Assembly (NCBI RefSeq): GCF_001244545.1
Contig: NZ_LN852694.1
Span: 316,172 to 380,171, forward strand
DNA length: 64,000 nucleotides
Reading direction: 5' to 3'
Source of the DNA: Candidatus Stoquefichus sp. SB1
GTDB lineage: Bacteria; Bacillota_I; Bacilli_A; Erysipelotrichales; Coprobacillaceae
Below are positions 16,709-18,402 of this stretch, one piece after another (positions within the stretch are counted from its first letter, which is position 1; every line of letters begins with the position of its first letter). The notes under the pieces were generated by a model. It made no database searches and was not told the origin of the DNA. It worked only from the letters and a program-made list of their open reading frames with translations. Made by a program: the position numbers and the translations under genes.

Positions 16709-17060
16709 ATGAATTGTCATATTCGCTCATTATATTTATGTGTAAAAGATATGGAGCGAGCAATACATTTTTATGAAAATTTTTTTTGAAAAGAAAGTGA
16801 TGATAAAAAATGATATTTATAGTGTTTTTGATATCAATGGATTTCGTTTAGGTTTATTTGCTTATGAAAAGATGAATGAAATTCATACATTTGGAAGCAA
16901 TTGTCTTCCAAGTATTGAGGTAGAAACTATTGATATTCTCAAAAATAAGATAAGTGGATTAGAAATTTGTTTCCCTCTGAGTCAAATTGGTAAGAATTGG
17001 GTAGTAGAAATTGTTGATACGGAAAGTAATCATATTGAAATAACGACTCCAATTAGATAA
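16709..17060 (+). pseudogene. VOC (glyoxalase/bleomycin-resistance-like) protein broken at a T8 run
   Basis: ATG 16709, behind AGGAGGG, opens MNCHIRSLYLCVKDMERAIH then FYENFF and meets TGA at 16787-16789, immediately after eight T (16780-16787). Removing one T gives a continuous VOC-fold protein of about 117 aa going on FEKKVMIKNDIYSVFDINGF, RLGLFAYEKMNEIH and ending NHIEITTPIR. The rest of the frame is undamaged, so this is a recent slip, a reversible phase-variable switch, or a sequencing error in a homopolymer. Listed as a pseudogene because as written it cannot make the full protein. Confidence 0.75.
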
Positions 17061-17182: not shown

Positions 17183-17256
17183 AAAGGAAGATGAAAATGA
17201 AACTTGGACTCAATAAAGCCTCTTAAAACAAAAGACAAAATTTTAGGAGGCAGAAA
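17183..17256 (+). promoter_or_regulatory. Translational attenuator of the cat gene
   Basis: Order: RBS AAAGGAAG (17183-17190), a 9-codon leader frame (17197-17226), then a stem formed by GCCTCTTAAAA (17218-17228) and TTTTAGGAGGC (17241-17251) with a 12-base loop. The right arm contains the cat RBS GGAGG (17246-17250), and the left arm contains the last leader codons and stop. A ribosome stalled in the leader by chloramphenicol would open the stem and free the RBS. This is the known logic of inducible cat genes in Gram-positive bacteria. Confidence 0.75.
17197..17226 (+). CDS. cat leader peptide
   Basis: Nine codons, MKLGLNKAS, then TAA, with a good RBS 6 bases before the ATG. An in-frame ATG two codons earlier abuts the RBS and is less likely. 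The last two sense codons and the stop lie in the left arm of the RBS-masking hairpin, as expected for a stall-sensing leader. Confidence 0.65.
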   Translation: MKLGLNKAS

Positions 17257-17907
17257 ATGAAATTTACAAAATTAGATTTCAATACATGGGATAGAGCAGA
17301 ACTCTTTCAACACTTTATAAGTGATTTGCGTTGTGTTATGAGTATGAGTGTTAACATTGATATTACAGAATTTTTACAAGTCATTCATAATAAACAATAC
17401 AAATTTTATCCATCAATGATATGGATTATAAGTTCAGCAGTTAATAGTCGCGAAGAATTACGAATGGGATATAATGAAAAAGGAGAAGTTGGAATATGGG
17501 ATTATATTTCACCATATTACACACATTTTCATCAAGAAGATGAAAAGTTTGTAAAATTGGTTATTGAATACAATTCTAACTTTCAAGAATTTTATCAACA
17601 GTTTATAAAAGATATGGAAAAATATCAGAATTATCGATGGTTTGATCAAAAAAATATTCCTTTAAACACATTTGATGTATCTTGTTTGCCATGGATACAT
17701 TATCAAAGTTTTGATATGCATATTTTTGATTCAGGTACATATATAGCACCTGTTATTACTTGGGGAAAGTATAAAGAAAATGAAGATGGAAGAATCATTA
17801 TGCCATTATCTTTAAATATTCATCATGCAGTGGCTGATGGATATCATCTTTGCAGATTTTTTACAGATGTTGAAGACTGTTTAAAAAAGTTTAATAAAGA
17901 ATCATAA
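17257..17907 (+). CDS. cat: Chloramphenicol O-acetyltransferase (type A CAT)
   Basis: 216 aa cytoplasmic trimeric enzyme family that transfers acetyl from acetyl-CoA to chloramphenicol. The catalytic signature is NIHHAVADGYH, with His190 as the general base and Asp194 four residues on, exactly as in known CATs. Other family stretches: FNTWDRAELFQHF at the N-terminus, VNIDITEFLQVI, FYPSMIWIISSAVN and MPLSLNIHH. Length is standard. ATG 17257 lies 6 bases after GGAGG, which is sequestered in the attenuator hairpin. A VOC gene follows 21 bases later and may be co-transcribed. Activity on chloramphenicol is inferred; some relatives are poorly active. Confidence 0.92.
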   Translation: MKFTKLDFNTWDRAELFQHFISDLRCVMSMSVNIDITEFLQVIHNKQYKFYPSMIWIISSAVNSREELRMGYNEKGEVGIWDYISPYYTHFHQEDEKFVKLVIEYNSNFQEFYQQFIKDMEKYQNYRWFDQKNIPLNTFDVSCLPWIHYQSFDMHIFDSGTYIAPVITWGKYKENEDGRIIMPLSLNIHHAVADGYHLCRFFTDVEDCLKKFNKES

Positions 17908-17928: not shown

Positions 17929-18351
17929 ATGAAACAAGCTATTGTTCACATTGCCTTAGTTGTCAGAGACTATGACGAAGCAATTGAATTTTACACACAA
18001 AAGTTACACTTTACTTTAGTTGAAGATACATACCAACCTGAACAAGATAAAAGATGGGTCATTGTTTCACCGCCAGGTAGTCAAGGAACAACATTATTAC
18101 TTGCAAAAGCATCGAAACCGATACAAAACAATTTTATTGGTAATCAAGCTGGAGGAAGAGTTTTTCTGTTTTTAGGAACTGATGATTTTTGGAGAGACTA
18201 TCAGGATATCGTTGATCAAAATATTGAAATAGTCAGAAAACCTAAAGAAACTGATTATGGGATTGTTGCTGTTTTCAAAGATTTGTATGGAAATTTATGG
18301 GATTTGGTTCAATTTAATAAAAATCATCCTATTTATAAGAGAATAAAATAA
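17929..18351 (+). CDS. VOC family (glyoxalase-like) protein
   Basis: 140 aa vicinal-oxygen-chelate fold: IVHIALVVRDYDEAIEFYTQ, KLHFTLVEDTYQPEQDKRWV, the glycine-rich GNQAGGRVFLFLGTDDFWRD, and the C-terminal VAVFKDLYGNLWDLVQF carrying the usual metal-ligand Glu/Asp/His region (here VFKDLYGN). ATG 17929 with AGGAGAG upstream. Such proteins are lyases, dioxygenases or antibiotic-binding resistance proteins; the specific role is unknown. Its position behind cat makes a detoxification role plausible. Confidence 0.85.
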   Translation: MKQAIVHIALVVRDYDEAIEFYTQKLHFTLVEDTYQPEQDKRWVIVSPPGSQGTTLLLAKASKPIQNNFIGNQAGGRVFLFLGTDDFWRDYQDIVDQNIEIVRKPKETDYGIVAVFKDLYGNLWDLVQFNKNHPIYKRIK

Positions 18352-18402
18352 AAAGATGTATTTTGCTCCATATTGAAATGGAGCTTTTATTATGCATCTT
18401 TT
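18351..18402. terminator. Bidirectional terminator between convergent genes
   Basis: Inner stem GCTCCAT/ATGGAGC (18365-18384) with a TTTTATT tail on the + side, and an outer AAAAGATG/CATCTTTT pair. It serves the VOC gene (+) and overlaps the end of the LysR gene (-). Confidence 0.7.

Follow-up and report, generated by a model that had tools for sequence, protein, structure and literature searches.

The 64,000-nucleotide stretch analysed here (the window) carries a chromosomal gene for a protein related to chloramphenicol acetyltransferase (cat), and upstream of it a short open reading frame runs into a potential RNA stem. This raises the question of how the gene is controlled and to what its leader responds. 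The earlier note had read the locus as a complete translational attenuator with a leader of its own; the attenuator is indeed complete, with stem, leader length and register conserved, but the leader is not unique. We consider it very likely that the gene, which encodes a CatA-like acetyltransferase, is controlled by translational attenuation of the cat-86/catA8 type. The best reading is that the attenuator is of a kind already known and that the leader variant is new.

The features are listed in Table 1. A leader of nine codons with its own ribosome-binding site (RBS) ends within the left arm of a stem, and the cat RBS is masked by the opposite arm, all at the positions claimed for them previously. 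The leader reads ATG AAA CTT GGA CTC AAT AAA GCC TCT TAA. There is an in-frame ATG at 17191, which was rejected as the leader start because its spacing to the leader RBS is too short. The stem, previously counted as 10 of 11 pairs, is slightly better than this, with 11 of 11 paired (10 Watson-Crick and one G-U).

Table 1. Positions of the attenuator, the genes downstream of it and the related four-segment loci
Feature	Position	Strand	Evidence
Leader RBS, AAAGGAAG	17183-17190	+	Sequence; 6 nt 5' of the ATG at 17197
Leader ORF, 9 codons, MKLGLNKAS and stop, Gly at codon 4	17197-17226	+	Sequence and homologous leaders
Attenuator stem, left arm GCCTCTTAAAA: codons 8 and 9, the stop and two bases more	17218-17228	+	Folding, alignment
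Stem loop, 12 nt	17229-17240	+	Folding
Attenuator stem, right arm TTTTAGGAGGC, including the cat Shine-Dalgarno sequence (SD) AGGAGG at 17245-17250	17241-17251	+	Folding, covariation
CatA-like acetyltransferase, 216 aa, ATG at 17257, stop ending at 17907; R13, S142, T168, H190 and D194 conserved	17257-17907	+	Pfam, NCBIfam, CATIII alignment
VOC/glyoxalase-fold protein, 21 nt 3' of cat	17929-18351	+	Pfam Glyoxalase, E 1.6e-21
Possible intrinsic terminator of the cat-VOC unit	18365-18384	+	One found, 0.2 expected
Four-segment loci: L071, L073, L074, L081, L082, L084, L086, L087, L091-L093, L095, L097, L098, L100-L104, L106, L109, L111, L118, L120, L123	about 120-140 nt before cat

RNA folding, proposed earlier as a check, bears the stem out: the minimum free energy is -22 kcal/mol compared with -11.5 +/- 2.7 for shuffled sequences (z -3.86), and none of 200 shuffles was as stable. 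An equally strong stem masking the SD, together with a leader ending in its arm, was found in 0 of 2000 dinucleotide shuffles in which the cat SD was held fixed. In 460 kb of the same genome, a detector with a stem threshold slightly looser than the window stem was passed by only two of 353 SD-bearing genes, the window cat gene and one with a 41-nt loop. There was one convincing match in this genome to a covariance model built from homologous elements, and this was the window element (58.6 bits, E 8.6e-9; next best 23.1 bits, E 0.41); the element was in the training set, so the search shows the absence of others and is not an independent detection. Among 395 genomes of the same class the RNA model gave no further convincing case, and the best few weak matches looked like chance.

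No described RNA family in Rfam was matched. The only hit, SscA, scored 24.2 bits where the gathering cut-off is 60 and was rejected as a chance match; a scan of four related loci gave no match. A role for the stem in transcription attenuation was likewise rejected. The sequence that comes next is AGAAAATG, which has no T run and so excludes the stem as a terminator; none was called there.

The protein encoded downstream belongs to the CAT family (Pfam PF00302, E 1.1e-63, 215 bits against a gathering cut-off of 23.5) and has the HHxxxDG motif (H190/D194). Arg18, Ser148, Thr174, His195 and Asp199 of CATIII, which we take to be the functional residues of that enzyme, align with R13, S142, T168, H190 and D194, so that all are present. 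The enzyme is divergent, with 38-39% identity to CATIII and 36% to catA8, and at 237 bits it falls under the 270-bit cut-off of the NCBIfam type A CAT model (NF000491). Three other members of its clade score 203-214 bits with this model. The nearest genome match is in Candidatus Aristotella avistercoris (L059, 64% identity). The nearest plasmid-borne gene is from Pusillibacter (47%), where no attenuator was seen, and no match in the plasmid collection reaches 60%. The genome contains two more CAT-like genes, L010 (contig C4, 33447-34064) and L014 (67412-67939), with 28% and 23% identity to the window enzyme, respectively; no leader-stem pair was seen in their upstream regions.

With 21 nt between cat and the VOC gene, and a terminator-like site downstream of the latter, the two genes probably share an mRNA. 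No homologue of this VOC gene was found in the fetched flanks of other cat loci or in the two loci examined in G001, the one sampled congener, and no convincing candidate for a cat promoter was found. In G001, phnX is followed directly by the first VOC gene and there is no cat gene. The closest homologue, L059, sits in an unrelated neighbourhood. Taken together, these two observations suggest that the window cat gene was probably acquired or lost; no mobile element adjoining it was identified. Upstream of cat there is a further VOC gene (16709-17060), which is split by an extra T (a run of eight, compared with seven in the intact homologue in G001); either the gene is broken or the extra base reflects phase variation or an error in sequencing.

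The earlier note had named a lack of stem conservation in homologues as evidence against the attenuator and had proposed a survey of the leader. From a collection of 84,980 species we kept 80 homologues, to which catA8 and the window were added, and the short leader-stem element is present in the same register at 26 CatA-type loci. The leader has nine codons at 25 of these and ten at the other (L070), and at all 26 the left arm opens at codon 8 and pairs with the SD. RNAalifold recovered exactly the window's stem from 24 of the loci. In this 24-sequence alignment there are compensatory changes at three core pairs (38-77, 45-70 and 48-67); in L117, for example, a TGA stop is accompanied by CAGGAGG. 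Neither the 500 shuffles nor any slid version of the alignment attained the covariation score; the slid control carries more weight, since related rows can inflate the shuffle control. In most other CAT family members a leader-stem pair was not seen upstream, and the viral contigs searched contained no relatives.

Translational attenuation has been described for the class of plasmid cat genes that includes catA8. The catA8-type genes (pC194/pC221/pUB112 class; leader MKKSEDYSS) share with the window a leader RBS, a nine-codon leader and a CatA-family enzyme, and in catA8, as read in L057, codon 8 likewise opens the left arm and the arm pairs with the cat SD. The window gene differs in encoding a divergent enzyme and in lying on a 906-kb contig. 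Chromosomal cat genes of Clostridium, Anaerocolumna and Brevibacillus (among L121-L137) have the same nine-codon attenuator but Ser, Thr or Ala (S/T/A4) at codon 4, and the enzyme of one representative, L125, passes the NCBIfam CatA cut-off with 337 bits. The closest relative, L059, has the leader VRHGLEGAF and a stem like that of the window, but it differs in its GTG starts and its neighbouring genes. In ermC-type two-conformation attenuators, leader stalling frees a downstream SD as proposed here; the window element, however, is a single hairpin, and a four-segment layout is found only in related Oscillospiraceae loci.

Codons 2 to 7 of the leader lie outside the core stem. Nevertheless, all 25 distinct leaders of the nine-codon type have Gly, Ser, Thr or Ala at codon 4, encoded by the triplets GGA, GGG, TCA, ACA, ACC and GCA. 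The leader of cat-86 begins MVKTD; cat-86 and the catA8-type leaders have Ser or Thr at codon 4 where the window has Gly. In the window's group Gly4 is followed by Leu or Ile, and Lys2 is present in most members; codon 4 varies at the third base only and codon 5 mainly at the third base. The leader had been called new, and it is unlike the S/T/A4 leaders of catA8 and of the Clostridium and Brevibacillus genes. It is not a one-off, being part of a conserved MKx[G/C][L/I] group. No match to this leader type was found in the open-access literature.

Arrest by chloramphenicol is favoured by Ala, and then by Ser and Thr, at the penultimate (-1) residue of the nascent chain, and is helped by Lys at -3 and Asp at 0 (PMC11832420, PMC8987054). 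When the P site holds codon 5, the -1 and -3 positions are those of residue 4 and Lys2, respectively. The S/T/A4 leaders, catA8 included, follow the A/S/T rule; the Gly4 leaders follow the Lys part of the rule and not the A/S/T part. We count Gly4 as a variant of a stall determinant and do not use it to define the architecture of the element.

In the proposed mechanism, ribosomes would pass quickly through the nine codons when drug is absent, the stem would re-form and the cat SD would be hidden. A drug acting at the peptidyl transferase centre, with a phenicol the likeliest candidate, would arrest the ribosome while codon 5 occupies the P site and codon 6 the A site. The arrested ribosome would cover most of the left arm, so that the stem opens and cat is translated, probably along with the VOC gene. 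To model a ribosome, we blocked the RNA from 14 nt upstream to 15 nt downstream of the first base in the P site. The predicted probability that the SD is unpaired is 0.00 in free RNA and with a ribosome at codon 3. It rises to 0.89 when the ribosome stands at codon 5 or 6 and to 0.98 when it stands at codon 9. A stall at codon 5 or 6, as in classic attenuators of this kind, is consistent with the layout, but since the stem would open at codon 9 as well, the model leaves more than one position for the stall.

In a tree of 85 CAT proteins, the window enzyme and L059 are starred sisters. A clade of 62 rows (drawn open, with fork support 88/91) has the Gly4 leaders around its base. The S/T/A4 leaders are mainly in another clade (Clostridium, Lachnospiraceae, Brevibacillus, Virgibacillus and catA8), and L094, which has an S/T/A4 leader, branches beside the Gly4 clade. 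Gly4 and Cys4 leaders were seen only with the divergent CatA-like clade. The simplest reading of these sequences is an ancestral nine-codon attenuator with one change to Gly4.

There is a second cat attenuator architecture, with a 12-codon leader of the MKRGLDAAPCKA type, in Oscillospiraceae, Lachnospiraceae and others. At 22-25 loci nested in the Gly4 clade the RNA has been remodelled into four segments, and the leader, MK[RLI][GC][LI]...[AS]P[CY][KR]A, lies some 85 nt upstream of cat. An alignment of 20 of these loci supports two folds that exclude each other, one pairing 1:2 and 3:4 (SD masked), the other 1:3, and covariation for both folds exceeds that of all shuffles and slid controls. 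Thermodynamic modelling gave a median SD accessibility of 0.44 in free RNA and 0.54 with a ribosome at codon 5, a weak effect, so the switching mechanism is only suggested. The two four-segment loci scanned had no Rfam match. The MKx[G/C][L/I] start survives this remodelling of the RNA, which argues that the leader peptide itself appears to be selected.

The case for the attenuator is thus a stem and leader beyond chance in the same register at 26 CatA-type loci, the layout shared with catA8, a small residue at codon 4 outside the stem, Lys at -3, which favours chloramphenicol arrest (PMC11832420), and the modelling, in which the SD is exposed once codon 5 is occupied. Set against it are the score of the enzyme under the NCBIfam cut-off, the search for a promoter, which gave no convincing candidate, and Gly4 at -1, which departs from the Ala, Ser or Thr published as needed for strong chloramphenicol arrest. 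That the hairpin is vestigial or fortuitous is highly improbable: the gene is absent from G001, but there is covariation, register conservation and codon-level constraint over the 26 loci, and the leader RBS, start and stop are all intact. The same attenuator could instead work by arrest at the end of the leader, where Ser9 would occupy the P site, Ala8 would be the -1 residue and the A site would hold the stop codon. Such an arrest would obey the A/S/T rule with no need of codon 4, and its ribosome at codon 9 exposes the SD in the model. Codon 8 encodes Ala, Thr or Ser in 25 of 26 leaders of the nine-codon type, and Ala or Ser in 20 of 22 four-segment leaders even though 8 of the 20 sequences aligned leave its first base unpaired. 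In the nine-codon leaders, however, codon 8 must pair with the SD and the RNA accounts for its conservation; the small residues at codon 4 and the conservation of Lys2 are left unexplained, and for the four-segment relatives no opening of the SD is predicted when the ribosome stands at codon 9, where it would cover the whole of segment 1. We regard arrest at the leader end as unlikely.

Within the attenuator reading, chloramphenicol may be both inducer and substrate. A sub-case, whose probability overlaps with that of the attenuator itself, is that another peptidyl transferase inhibitor fills both roles and that the change from S/T/A4 to Gly4 tracks a change in enzyme specificity. This is possible, if doubtful. 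The restriction of Gly4 and Cys4 leaders to the divergent clade fits it, as do the NCBIfam CatA scores (203-237 bits for the four scanned clade members, 335-338 for two enzymes with S/T/A4 leaders). Additionally, Met28 and Met154 of the window enzyme stand at CATIII Phe33 and Leu160, which we take to line the chloramphenicol pocket. The catalytic residues are kept, however, Gly is still small, and these hosts may need no more than a weaker arrest by chloramphenicol. Moreover, the transition to Gly4 is a single cluster on the tree and so counts as one event, not as a statistical association. A bolder reading, which we hold to be less likely than not, is that MKx[G/C][L/I] leaders control a large CatA-like clade of gut Bacillota, sensing either a non-chloramphenicol peptidyl transferase inhibitor or chloramphenicol through an undescribed nascent-chain context, and that the motif was kept during the change from one hairpin to four segments.

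The cat leaders are the classic natural sensors behind the dependence of chloramphenicol arrest on residue -1. Leaders with Gly or Cys at this position raise the question of how complete the A/S/T rule is, the alternative being that these genes respond to a different compound. The survey also shows attenuation of cat to be an old chromosomal trait, widespread in gut Bacillota, and no plasmid speciality.
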